64,000 bases of DNA from Candidatus Baltobacteraceae bacterium (GTDB lineage: Bacteria > Vulcanimicrobiota > Vulcanimicrobiia > Vulcanimicrobiales > Vulcanimicrobiaceae): contig DATJTX010000024.1 of NCBI GenBank assembly GCA_035502855.1, positions 62,001 through 126,000 on the forward strand, read 5' to 3'. How positions within the stretch are numbered: position 1 is the first letter of the stretch; each line of letters opens with the position of its first letter. Both the position numbers and the translations under genes were made by a program. The notes under the pieces were generated by a model. The model ran no database searches. It had not been told where the DNA came from and saw nothing but the letters and a program-made list of their open reading frames with translations. Positions 47,952-51,753 of the stretch are shown piece after piece.

Positions 47952-49472
47952 GTGTCTGCCCACGCTCATAGCTCGCGCCCCGTCATGCGCACGCCCGCCA
48001 CAGTCGATCTACTTGCCGCCGGTCCCGCGCCGTGCGCAATCGTTGCGCTCGCCGGTTTTACGCTCGGCTTCTTTGCGTGGCTCACGCTGATCGTTCCGCG
48101 CCATCACGCACTGCTCAGTGACGCAGGGCTGCTCGTTTCGCTCGCGCTCGGTATCGCGGCGACGTTGTGGCTCTGGCAGCGCTACGCCCACTACTTTTCT
48201 CGCAGAACCGGGGCCACCTACGCGCGCTCCCTGCGCTACGACGCGCTCACCTGGGCGCCGTTCGTCCTACTCTGGCTCACGTTCGTACTTGCGCCGGCGC
48301 TCACGCACGGCGAGTCGCGCACCTTCGCCATCTGCGCGACGCTCTTTTGTCTCGGCAAAGTTCTGATCGCCGCGCGCTTCAACCAGACGGTGCGCGAGGT
48401 ACTGCTCGATTTCGTCGTGACGCGCACCGCCATCATCGTCATCGCGGAGCTCGCCGCCATCATCATCGGTCAGCGCGCCGGTCAGCACGTGCAAGAATCG
48501 ACGAACCTGCTCCTCAACGTTTGGGGCCGCTGGGACGCCGTCCACTATCTCGCGATCGCCTCGCAGGGATATCAGGGCACGGACATGGCGTTCTTCCCGC
48601 TCTTTCCGCTGCTGATTCATCTGCTCGGGCTCTTGGTGGGCAATCACCTCATCGCCGGACTGCTGATTTCGAACGCATCGTTCTTCTTCGGCTTGCTCTA
48701 CCTTTACAAGCTCCTCGAGCACGAATACGATCGTCCGGTCGCGCGGCGCGCGATCTTCTACGTCTCGATTTTCCCGTCGGCGTTCTTCTTCTCGGCGGTC
48801 TACACCGAATCGCTTTTCTTCATGCTGACGGTCGCATCGTTCTACTATATGCGCGCACACCGCTGGTGGCTGGCCGGCGCAATCGGGCTCCTCGCGGCGA
48901 TGACACGGGTCGAGGGCGTACTGTTGGTCGTTCCGTTCGCCATCGAATGGTACATGCAGTACAAACCAAATCTGCGCCGCCACCGCAGCGACCTCTACGC
49001 GGGCGCCCTGATCCCGCTCGGTTTGCTCGCATACATGGCGTACCTGTGGGTGCTCGTGGGCGATCCGCTCTATTTCTCGCACGTGCAGATCCATTGGAAC
49101 CGCCACTTTGCGGCACCCTGGGTGAGCGTGATCAACTCCGTTCACGGCATCTTGCACGCTACGCAAGGTCAGACGATCGCCGACCAGGGCATGGAATTGG
49201 CTTTCACCGCGCTGATGGTCGCCGTGCTCATCGGCGGCTGGAAACAGTTGCGGCCGTCGTACATTGCCTACATGGCGCTCTCGATCCTGATTCCGATGTC
49301 GACCTCGAGCCTGATGAGCATGCCGCGCTTTGCGCTCGTGCTCTTTCCGATGTACGCAATCCTCGCTCGCGACGGCGAGAAGCCCTGGGTCAACAACCTG
49401 ATCGTCGCGTTCTTCCTGCCGCTCCTGGGACTCTTCACCGTCCTCTTTGCGAATTGGTACTGGGTTGCGTAG
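47952..49472 (+). CDS. PIG-V-like integral membrane mannosyltransferase
   Basis: A 506-residue protein with about 11-12 transmembrane helices. 'VWGRWDAVHYLAIASQGYQG' and 'FFPLFPLLIHLLG' are the motifs of the PIG-V (GT76-like, GT-C fold) mannosyltransferases that use a polyprenyl-phosphate sugar donor. The first 25 residues are cytoplasmic. GTG start; ATG 47985 is an alternative. Together with GtrA and the GT39 gene it forms a group for membrane glycan transfer, the sugar presumably linked to undecaprenyl phosphate. Confidence 0.85.
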   Translation: MSAHAHSSRPVMRTPATVDLLAAGPAPCAIVALAGFTLGFFAWLTLIVPRHHALLSDAGLLVSLALGIAATLWLWQRYAHYFSRRTGATYARSLRYDALTWAPFVLLWLTFVLAPALTHGESRTFAICATLFCLGKVLIAARFNQTVREVLLDFVVTRTAIIVIAELAAIIIGQRAGQHVQESTNLLLNVWGRWDAVHYLAIASQGYQGTDMAFFPLFPLLIHLLGLLVGNHLIAGLLISNASFFFGLLYLYKLLEHEYDRPVARRAIFYVSIFPSAFFFSAVYTESLFFMLTVASFYYMRAHRWWLAGAIGLLAAMTRVEGVLLVVPFAIEWYMQYKPNLRRHRSDLYAGALIPLGLLAYMAYLWVLVGDPLYFSHVQIHWNRHFAAPWVSVINSVHGILHATQGQTIADQGMELAFTALMVAVLIGGWKQLRPSYIAYMALSILIPMSTSSLMSMPRFALVLFPMYAILARDGEKPWVNNLIVAFFLPLLGLFTVLFANWYWVA

Positions 49473-49488
49473 CCGCATCGCTGCCCTG

Positions 49489-49893
49489 ATGGAGCGCCGC
49501 GGCGTGCGTCAGTTCGTCAAATTCGGGATCGTCGGCGCGTCGGGATTCATCGTCAATCTCGTGGTCTTCACCGTTCTCCAGCGCCTCGATCCGCAACATA
49601 CGCTCGCCCTGCACTACGATGTGCTCTACTCGATCGGCTTTCTCGCCGGTGGCGTCTCGAACTACTGGCTCAACCGCGTCTGGACATTTCGCTCGAGCGG
49701 GCACGCGGTTCGCGAAGGCGTGCAGTTTCTCACCGTTTCGGTGATCGCACTGATCTTCGGGCTGATCGTATCCGCCATGGTCGCGCCGTTCTTCGGCCAC
49801 GGCCACCGCACGTGGTTCGTCGGCACGGTCGCCGGCATCTTCGTCAACTTCTTCGTCAACAAATACTGGACGTTCAAGGGTGCTCCGGCCTAG
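49489..49893 (+). CDS. GtrA family flippase-like membrane protein
   Basis: A 134-residue GtrA protein with four transmembrane helices ('FVKFGIVGASGFIVNLVVF', 'GVSNYWLNRVWTF', 'NFFVNKYWTFKG'). GtrA proteins are thought to move or present polyprenyl-phosphate sugars. The C-terminal 'FKGAPA' is encoded by the first unit of a 27-base tandem repeat. ATG 49489 gives the usual N-terminus; TTG 49465, overlapping the previous stop region, is also possible. Confidence 0.92.
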   Translation: MERRGVRQFVKFGIVGASGFIVNLVVFTVLQRLDPQHTLALHYDVLYSIGFLAGGVSNYWLNRVWTFRSSGHAVREGVQFLTVSVIALIFGLIVSAMVAPFFGHGHRTWFVGTVAGIFVNFFVNKYWTFKGAPA

Positions 49894-49924
49894 GCTCCGT
49901 TCAAAGGCGCTCCGCCCCGGGCTC
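49871..49924. repeat. Imperfect 27-base tandem repeat at the end of the GtrA gene
   Basis: Two adjacent 27-base units, 49871-49897 and 49898-49924, share 22 of 27 bases (both begin CGTTCAA and end GGCTC). The first encodes the C-terminal residues and stop of GtrA; the second starts the hairpin element. Confidence 0.85.
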
Positions 49925-49957
49925 CGCGCCCCCCAACTTCGTTGGGGCCCCCCAACC
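49898..49957 (+). repeat. GC-rich hairpin repeat, copy A (intergenic)
   Basis: The element begins CGTTCAAAGGCGCTCCGCC (49898-49916), continues through CGGGCTCCGCG, and ends in a hairpin CCCCAAC / GTTGGGG (49931-49937, 49941-49947) followed by six C (49948-49953). It lies between the GtrA stop and the GT39 start. Copy B, 530 bases downstream, has the same order of blocks with a different stem sequence. Confidence 0.85.
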
Positions 49958-49971
49958 ATGGCGCGCTCAAC

Positions 49972-51753
49972 GTGTCGGTAAGCGAAGATTCCCCTAGGGC
50001 GCGCCAAACCAACGTTGATACGCAGCCATCGATTTCCCGGGACTTGGACCGGCGCTTTACTCTTCTTTTGCTCGTCATCGTGCTCTTTGCCGTGGTCCTG
50101 CGCCTCAAAGGCATCCACGATCCGATTCTCGATCATCCGGCCTGGCGGCAGGGCGATACGGCGAGCATCGCGCGGAACTTCGCACTGCTTCGGTACAACA
50201 TCATGTATCCGCAGACCAACTACGACGGGCCGCCGCCCAATTACGTCGAGCTGGAGCTGCAGATCGTTCCGTTTCTGGCGGCCTCGCTGTACAAGGTCTT
50301 CGGCGTGCACGCGATCTTCGGACGACTGATCACGCTGCTCTTCTCCGCCGGGACGGTCGCGGTCGTCGGTTATTTCGGCCGCTGGCTGTTCTCCCCACTT
50401 GCTTGGCAGCAAGTGGGGACCCCGGCACGTTCAAAAGGCGCTCCGCCTTCGGCTGCGCGCTCCCCCGGTGCTTTGCACCTGGGGCCCCCCAGCGCGATCG
50501 CGGGGCTAACGGCGGCGTTCTTCTACGCGATCTTTCCCGGCAGCATCTACTATGGGCGCACCTTCACGCCCGACACGGCGATGGTGTTCTTCCTCACCGC
50601 CGCACTCTATGTCGTCACGCGGCTCATCGTGGAAGACGAGATCTTCTCCCAACGCTCCCTCGCGCGCGCGACCGCGCTGCTCACGTTGGCCTATTTGGCC
50701 AAGCCGGTCGCCGTCGTCGGGCTCGTTCCGGTAATCGGTACGCTCTGGGAACGTGTGCGCAGCGGACGCACGATGCGGCCCACGGCCGTCATGGTCTTAC
50801 TGGTCGTTCCGCTGATCATTCTATGGCTCTACGACGTGCGGGTGAGCGAACAGGCGGAGTGGCATTGGGCGAGCGGCATCACCAGGCTGCACGTCATCCC
50901 GGGCCTCGAGTCGGCCTTGCGCAGCATCAGCGGTTTCACGCTCAAACTCACCCAGTTCCGCGAAGTGCTCGGGATGCTGCGCGCGACCATGCTCGGCACG
51001 ATTCCGTTCGCACTTTCGATCGCCGGATTCGTCGCGCTCGTCTGGACGAACGCGCGCAGCAGGGCGCTGCTGTGGGGGTGGCTGATCGGCGGCATTGCCT
51101 ACATGTACGTCGTGGTGACGGTCGAACGCGTCGACTATTACATGGCGCCGCTCTTGCCGCTCTGCGCACTGGTCATCGGCGCGCTCGTCGCGCGCTTCAT
51201 CGCGTGGGTTGGAACGGTCGACGCTGCTCCGGCGTCGCGCTACGCAATCGTTGCGCTGGTCCCGCTCGTCGCGCTCGCCTCGCTGGTGCAAGCGCGCGCC
51301 GCGATTGCGCCGTACTACGCCTACAACAAGGCGGCGTATCGCAATGCGGTCACGCTCGATCATACGCTGGCACCCGGTTCGCTGGTCGTCGTCGGCCACT
51401 ACGGTCCCGACATTCTCTATTACATCGACCGCTACGGTTGGGAGGAGGATCCGTACCTGTGGACGCCGTTCGACGAAGAGAGCGCGATCCGCAAGGGGGC
51501 GCGCTACTTCATCTCGATCGAGGATAACCGCTTACGGCGCAACCTCGAACTCTGCGCGTGGCTGCAGCGCTTCCCGGTGCTCGATCCGAACGCGCAGTGG
51601 CCTGTCTATGTCACGAATCCCGCGCACGAACGTCCCGGCGCCGACGCGTTCTGGCGCGCCTTCCGCAAGGCGGAAGCTGCCGGTAGAGGCCGCGCGTTCC
51701 TCGACTCCCGTCACCTGTGCATCGGGCGTACCGGATCGGCCGCGTCGACCTGA
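49972..51753 (+). CDS. GT39-like (ArnT/PMT type) membrane glycosyltransferase carrying an inserted repeat
   Basis: A 593-residue GT-C enzyme with about 11 transmembrane helices. The first loop has the catalytic acidic region ('DHPAWRQGDTASIARNF') and a later 'YYGRTFTPDTAMVFFL' motif is typical of ArnT/PMT-like proteins using polyprenyl-phosphate sugars. Residues about 142-175 ('LAWQQVGTPARS...GPPSA') interrupt an otherwise normal transmembrane region and are encoded by the hairpin repeat copy B in frame. GTG 49972 was chosen because earlier in-frame codons lie in repeat copy A; no good ribosome site is visible. Confidence 0.85.
   Translation: MSVSEDSPRARQTNVDTQPSISRDLDRRFTLLLLVIVLFAVVLRLKGIHDPILDHPAWRQGDTASIARNFALLRYNIMYPQTNYDGPPPNYVELELQIVPFLAASLYKVFGVHAIFGRLITLLFSAGTVAVVGYFGRWLFSPLAWQQVGTPARSKGAPPSAARSPGALHLGPPSAIAGLTAAFFYAIFPGSIYYGRTFTPDTAMVFFLTAALYVVTRLIVEDEIFSQRSLARATALLTLAYLAKPVAVVGLVPVIGTLWERVRSGRTMRPTAVMVLLVVPLIILWLYDVRVSEQAEWHWASGITRLHVIPGLESALRSISGFTLKLTQFREVLGMLRATMLGTIPFALSIAGFVALVWTNARSRALLWGWLIGGIAYMYVVVTVERVDYYMAPLLPLCALVIGALVARFIAWVGTVDAAPASRYAIVALVPLVALASLVQARAAIAPYYAYNKAAYRNAVTLDHTLAPGSLVVVGHYGPDILYYIDRYGWEEDPYLWTPFDEESAIRKGARYFISIEDNRLRRNLELCAWLQRFPVLDPNAQWPVYVTNPAHERPGADAFWRAFRKAEAAGRGRAFLDSRHLCIGRTGSAAST
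50393..50491 (+). repeat. GC-rich hairpin repeat, copy B, in frame inside the GT39 gene
   Basis: Block CGTTCAAAAGGCGCTCCGCC (50428-50447) matches copy A with one base added. It is followed by CGGCTGCGCGC, a hairpin GGTGC / GCACC with a TTT loop (50467-50479) and GGGGCCCCCC (50481-50490). Upstream there is a perfect 10-base stem CCCCACTTGC / GCAAGTGGGG (50393-50402 and 50409-50418). The inserted part, about 102 bases (50395-50496), is a multiple of three and contains no stop. Confidence 0.85.

Follow-up and report, generated by a model that had tools for sequence, protein, structure and literature searches.

Palindromic repeats inserted in frame in protein-coding genes are a hallmark of Rickettsia. 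In-frame copies of the Rickettsia palindromic elements (RPEs) lie inside unrelated protein genes (Ogata 2000, 2002; reviewed in PMC10969869), and the 2024 review considers the mechanism of in-frame palindromic insertion to be conceivable in other prokaryotes (PMC10969869). The element described here resembles the RPEs, palindromic repeats of about 100-150 nt that are dispersed in a lineage, in that some copies are in frame in unrelated genes, absent from homologues and apparently tolerated in the product. It differs from them in belonging to another phylum, in being GC-rich, in having three separate hairpins with hypervariable stems and no conserved open frame or peptide, and in lying mostly between genes or at gene ends. 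With the REP/REPIN elements and their RAYT transposases (PMC3116915) it shares the character of a dispersed, hairpin-forming, non-autonomous repeat with tandem copies, but there is no Y1/RAYT gene in its genome, it has three hairpins rather than the REP/REPIN arrangement, and copies occur inside genes. The enterobacterial RU-1/2/3 repeats (PMC2759123) and other prokaryotic MITEs are likewise mobile repeats of ~100-170 nt that occasionally give in-frame gene fusions; here, in contrast, no typical MITE terminal inverted repeats were recognised, no parental transposase was found and any target duplication is <=2 bp. The mitochondrial double-hairpin or repetitive hairpin-forming elements, to judge from the part of the account consulted (PMC2800124), are similar in shape only, being short adjacent hairpins, whereas the present element resides in bacterial chromosomes, has an extra conserved core and shows signs of in-frame insertion in genes.

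The copy under study lies in a 64,000-nucleotide stretch (the window) of a 236-kb contig (C24) belonging to a genome of 3.33 Mb in 39 contigs that is 96.6% complete and that its homologues from named MAGs assign to Candidatus Eremiobacterota. The features of the locus are collected in Table 1. The host gene encodes a membrane protein of 603 amino acids, counted from a TTG start, whose match to PMT_2 is weak; AlphaFold modelling and Foldseek comparison reveal a GT-C fold resembling ArnT and oligosaccharyltransferases. The glycosyltransferase gene is interrupted between RWLFS and SAIAGL by an insert that encodes PLAWQQVGTPARSKGAPPSAARSPGALHLGPP in frame. At the codon level the host runs TTC TCC up to the insert, which reads CCA...CCC, and resumes with AGC GCG; since CC is present at both ends, the placement is ambiguous by 2 nt. 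The initial annotation was right that the insert is open and in frame, but its estimate of 102 bases and 34 residues is reduced by these junctions to 96 nt and 32 codons, and the two hairpins that it described are in fact three. In the AlphaFold model, residues 155-179 of the protein have pLDDT values <50 and the flanking helix blocks values of 93-97, so that the insert is predicted to be a low-confidence loop joining two confident transmembrane helices.

Table 1. Features of the glycosyltransferase locus (window coordinates)
Feature	Coordinates	Strand	Basis
gtrA-like gene, directly upstream	49447..49893	+	Pfam PF04138
Copy A, type I relative, between gtrA and the glycosyltransferase gene	49898..50006	+	core repeat; conservation in sister genome G001
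Host gene, GT-C (PMT_2/ArnT-like) membrane glycosyltransferase	49942..51753	+	Pfam PF13231; GT-C fold matches ArnT/OST/Pmt
Inserted element, 96 nt / 32 codons	50395..50490 (or 50393-50488)	+	missing in homologues of 54 related genomes; model R1 (match 50393-50488, 99.1 bits)
Left hairpin H1, TCCCCACTTGCT / AGCAAGTGGGGA, 12 bp, 4-nt loop (arms 50392-50403/50408-50419)	50392..50419	+	inverted repeat, fold, family-wide covariation
Invariant CCCC following GGGGA; linker GGCACGTTCAAAA next (in the family, N-GTTTAAA-N)	50420..50436	+	alignment A5
Core GGCGCTCCGCCTTCGGCTGCGCGC(T), middle hairpin, best-conserved block	50437..50461	+	copy comparison, covariation
Right hairpin H2 (CCCC C GGTGC TTT GCACC T GGGG; 50462-50484) and terminal CCCC	50462..50488	+	fold, covariation

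The glycosyltransferase gene was found in 54 of 60 related genomes searched, and in none of them does it contain the insert; the initial annotation had named presence at this place in all homologues as a refuting observation. In relatives that cover the site, the alignment breaks between about residues 151 and 184, and the target coordinates on either side are adjacent or a few codons apart. The homologues read RWLF-x-SALAGL at the codon level; the same reading is found in those from named MAGs, 26 of which were recovered, all lacking the insert. The nearest homologue, which belongs to a congeneric genome and shows 82% identity across the downstream portion, has CTG TTT GCC AGC GCG CTC GCG where the present gene has CTG TTC TCC (96 nt) AGC GCG ATC GCG. 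Because this congeneric genome is without the insert, the insertion is most simply dated to a time after the two species diverged. On sequence comparison, these empty sites show the insert to be a recent arrival in the glycosyltransferase gene. Two homologues carry short unrelated extensions at the insert site (e.g. SPPSSRAGNAGN, GVPGKRNE), from which we infer that the loop is permissive. The same tolerance of short length changes in some homologues would fit a native variable loop of the glycosyltransferase that is repeat-like by chance or through GC-rich expansion; this reading, scarcely tenable in our judgement, is refuted by the genome-wide matches of the element, the insert scoring 99 bits against R1 and further copies of the element being present at many unrelated loci.

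To the left of the gene, the core recurs in copy A (at 49898) over 32 nt with 84% identity to the core of the insert. The recurrence upstream had been recognised in the initial annotation, though copy A belongs to a different sub-type, type I, in which H1 is missing and a further arm is present. Copy A comprises core, H2 and a third arm, GGCGCGC...GGGCGCGCC, extending to about 50006. The string CGTTCAAAGGCGCTCCGCC matches copy A exactly, and the insert has one additional A (CGTTCAAAAGGCGC). From the end of the core onward, copy A is conserved in the sister genome; since it is mostly common to the two genomes, it is older than the insert. The end of gtrA holds a 27-nt near-duplication (direct repeat D2 49871/49898, 81%, spanning 49871-49924), one of whose two units is lacking in the sister genome, and the last codons of gtrA with their TAG stop bear a resemblance to the 5' terminus of type I elements. 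Type I elements often end right at start codons: those catalogued as L063-L088 (e.g. L063, L066, L080) very often end 3-10 nt from an opposite-strand start codon, and those near start codons place their own GGAG at the Shine-Dalgarno position (GGCGGAGCGCCTTTTAAATG). A type I element could be a mobile 5' leader carrying its own ribosome-binding site.

BLAST within the genome recovered about ten partial copies of the element. A covariance model, R1, was built from it and applied with cut-offs of E<=0.1 for counts in single genomes and E<=0.001 across the phylum. There are 22 matches in the genome itself at the former cut-off, and at the latter 66 of 149 genomes of the phylum are positive, all of them members of one family (f1) of Candidatus Eremiobacterota; the element occupies many unrelated loci, with multiple loci in many of the positive genomes. 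The other refuting observation named in the initial annotation, confinement of the repeat to two copies, is thus absent as well: the repeat is widespread, in this genome and in its relatives. Weak matches occur in three genomes of a second family (f2), and R1 had no match at E<=0.1 in 14 genomes of a sister family (f3), which places the repeat far above chance. Nearly all of the genomes compared are MAGs, as is the genome studied here, and an assembly or binning artefact has to be weighed. Such an artefact is very improbable, given that the insert lies well inside a long contig with syntenic flanks and is an exact in-frame 96 nt, and that independent in-frame insertions of the same element family are present in other MAGs. 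A literature search found nothing on palindromic repeats of Candidatus Eremiobacterota, and the family is on that account apparently undescribed. We conclude, with a probability of about 0.82, that the insert represents a dispersed palindromic element, non-autonomous and restricted to its lineage, that has spread in one family of this phylum. It works like the RPEs yet apparently constitutes a different family, to judge by its lineage and base composition; the likeness to RPEs drawn in the initial annotation is one of behaviour.

The copies share a plan of ~96 nt: H1, (A/G)CCCC, a linker with GTTTAAA, the core hairpin, H2 and CCCC. In the family, H1 is a 10-12-bp hairpin with CCCC/GGGG ends, the core hairpin reads GGCGCTNCGCC TTC GGCTNCGCGCC, and H2 consists of CCCC, six bases, a three-base loop, six bases and GGGG. 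Tandem copies, each having its CCCC in common with the copy before it, were observed at L146 (G018:C57), L248/L247 (G105:C38, C9), L082 (G004:C41) and L281 (G100:C67); the G105 tandem sits within dxr, and there a host-like YPNRL arm is repeated.

RNA folding of the insert gave z = -4.2, with none of 200 shuffles equally stable. Among 29 real copies, all R1 hits aligned by fitting to the model's structure, 92.3% of stem cells are paired, compared with 36-48% when partners are slid, and none of 500 shuffles scored as high. In the same copies, 150 cells have changed on both sides and 5 of about 780 paired cells are G-U. An earlier covariation count, in which the length of two seed sequences had been altered by editing, is not used. 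The stems vary freely yet stay paired, and at the level of sequence this shows them behaving as DNA palindromes. Strong covarying stems would also be expected of a structured RNA, such as a riboswitch, attenuator or terminator, that is selected in transcripts and whose coding copies are accidental, and the frequent position of type I copies next to a start codon, with GGAG supplied by the element, is consistent with this. RNA stems, however, normally contain many more G-U pairs than the five found here, copies inside genes occur in both sense and antisense orientation, and an Rfam scan of positions 49400-51000 gave no match at E<=1; we regard a structured RNA as improbable.

Nor does the element appear to be built for translation, an idea that we rejected. 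Open frames number 107 of 174, against 108.2 +/- 4.8 in shuffles, and are thus not enriched; in so GC-rich an element about 60% of frames are open. Copy lengths range over 88-109 nt with no bias towards multiples of three, about a third being divisible by three, and no conserved open frame or peptide was found in the element. With openness at the shuffled level and no bias in length, the existence of in-frame copies calls for no special design.

The majority of copies are intergenic or sit at the ends of genes, and copies usually begin at CCCC. The proposal in the initial annotation of a short lineage repeat that tolerates insertion in genes is supported by further copies inside dxr, valS, the gene of a large unnamed protein and probably mfd, although such internal copies are the minority. 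Internal in-frame copies in dxr were found in six genomes (G033, G105, G096, G079, G073 and G100), the gap relative to homologues having been checked for the G033 copy. In valS of G119 the internal in-frame copy corresponds to query residues 368-404, which are missing from relatives covering the site. A large conserved protein of G010 with no Pfam match has an in-frame antisense copy adding 25 residues net, and mfd of the same genome probably carries another (L167), with a net gain of 9 residues in a variable stretch. In the genome studied here, the element extends the C-terminus of AccC and adds to ribosomal protein L4 (rplD) a C-terminal tail that has no equivalent in the relatives searched. 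Some of these gene-end or in-gene copies (dxr, accC) are common to genomes of different genera, and part of the copy number may for this reason reflect inheritance and not fresh movement. One copy (L161, G032:C133) sits where a class-A beta-lactamase-like gene encodes its signal peptide, and there it appears to disrupt the frame that starts at the native ATG. The dxr loop also hosts a different repeat in frame, as CHPEPVEGS in the genome studied here (L182, G000:C24:128.4-129.5 kb) and as HGVILSLSKDESLSKN in G033 (L140). The two peptides appear to come from a single other dispersed repeat read in two frames, and the dxr loop seems to be a hotspot at which short repeats land.

In accC, dxr, mlaF, rplQ and valS, the outer H1 arm consists of host codons or overlaps them closely, and its inverted copy forms the inner arm, which follows the host codons from one genome to the next. 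AccC without the element ends GFLPSLLKARV-stop, GFLPRLL or GFLPALL, and with it reads GFLPKLLKQFG... or GFLPNLLTQIG..., the DNA being CTC CCC AAA TTG CTT AAG / CAA TTT GGG GAC CCC. For dxr, TAC CCC GAT CGC TTG without the element becomes TAC CCC AAT CGA CTG CCG / TCG ATT GGG GGC CCC with it, and differences in the outer arm among the six genomes reappear mirrored in the inner arm. The MlaF-like ABC protein natively ends ...GPIPL-stop or GPIPI-stop; with the element its gene reads CCC CTT TGA TGC / GCA TCA AAG GGG in one genome and CCC CTT TAA TGC / GCA TTA AAG GG in a second. In rplQ of the genome studied here, GAGTTAGTCAGAT-AA-ATCTGACTAACTC is a perfect 13-bp mirror of host codons without any CCCC, and the site is element-free in the sister genome. 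In valS, the host TAT CCC ATT runs on into the H1 arm. The glycosyltransferase copy differs: the outer H1 arm was considered as host sequence and this was rejected, since the right flank AGCGCG is orthologous and the whole element, both arms included, is new. There, a target duplication would be at most 2 bp (CC), and beyond this no clear target-site duplication was found.

These mirrored arms raise the tentative possibility, one that we consider less than even, that the target supplies the sequence of the left hairpin. Snap-back copying of the target strand, after a break or stall, would be followed by a switch into a copy of the element, often by way of GGGG/CCCC, either at insertion or in later upkeep. 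The accC and dxr arms have also shifted toward the family consensus (the residue after P becoming K or N), so that target choice, capture or later correction may each have contributed. Template switching in replication creates and maintains such hairpins and homogenises their arms, according to the parts consulted of two reports (PMC8794818, PMC8604942), and we infer that it may be what happens to these stems. At another locus (L154, G024:C183:1267-1379) the left hairpin is made by the start region of a gene, with N-terminus MSMTTLRVGIDVGGTFTDVV; the inverted repeat pairs codons around the start with codons of the GIDVGG motif.

A mobiliser was sought among the Y1 transposases (IS200/IS605/RAYT; PF01797). 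An element of REP/REPIN type, or one derived from IS200/IS605, whose mobility came from a Y1 (HUH) transposase recognising the hairpins as single-stranded DNA, would account for the hairpin ends, the length of about 100 nt, the absent or minimal target duplication and the maintenance of palindromes as DNA. This reading is weakened, and we think it unlikely, because PF01797 has no match in the genome itself (G000), nearly complete as it is, or in the repeat-rich genomes G004, G006, G010 and G033; among the family f1 genomes searched, only G021 and G028 have any. No parental element of the repeat was found. Several near-identical tnpB genes lie at contig ends of the genome (L026, L027, L029, L030; contigs C35, C19, C8, C7). 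A link to them was rejected: the tnpB hits (L026-L030) reflect chance matches of 14 nt within the gene, and the tnpB loci that were checked hold no hairpin resembling those of the element.

In line with the preferred reading of a dispersed, non-autonomous palindromic element, copies are found outside genes, at their ends and, if length and frame permit it, in permissive loops within them. Hairpin-templated copying (template switching), a need for hairpins in movement, or both would preserve the stems as palindromes in DNA. Translation would pass through the insert to give a disordered 32-residue loop tolerated by the glycosyltransferase, and the in-frame copies may be simple survivors of selection.

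In-frame palindromic insertion thus recurs in a GC-rich, uncultured lineage far from Rickettsia, and in core genes (dxr, valS, rplD, accC). A small dispersed DNA repeat would in this way add stretches of protein to bacterial enzymes, and the empty sites allow comparison. Since several genomes hold the element at some of the same sites, these can be compared to test directly the correction of hairpins by DNA template switching, and the comparison bears on how a repeat spreads without a recognisable transposase. If left hairpins are indeed written from the target, this would constitute a transposase-free route for the spread of such repeats.
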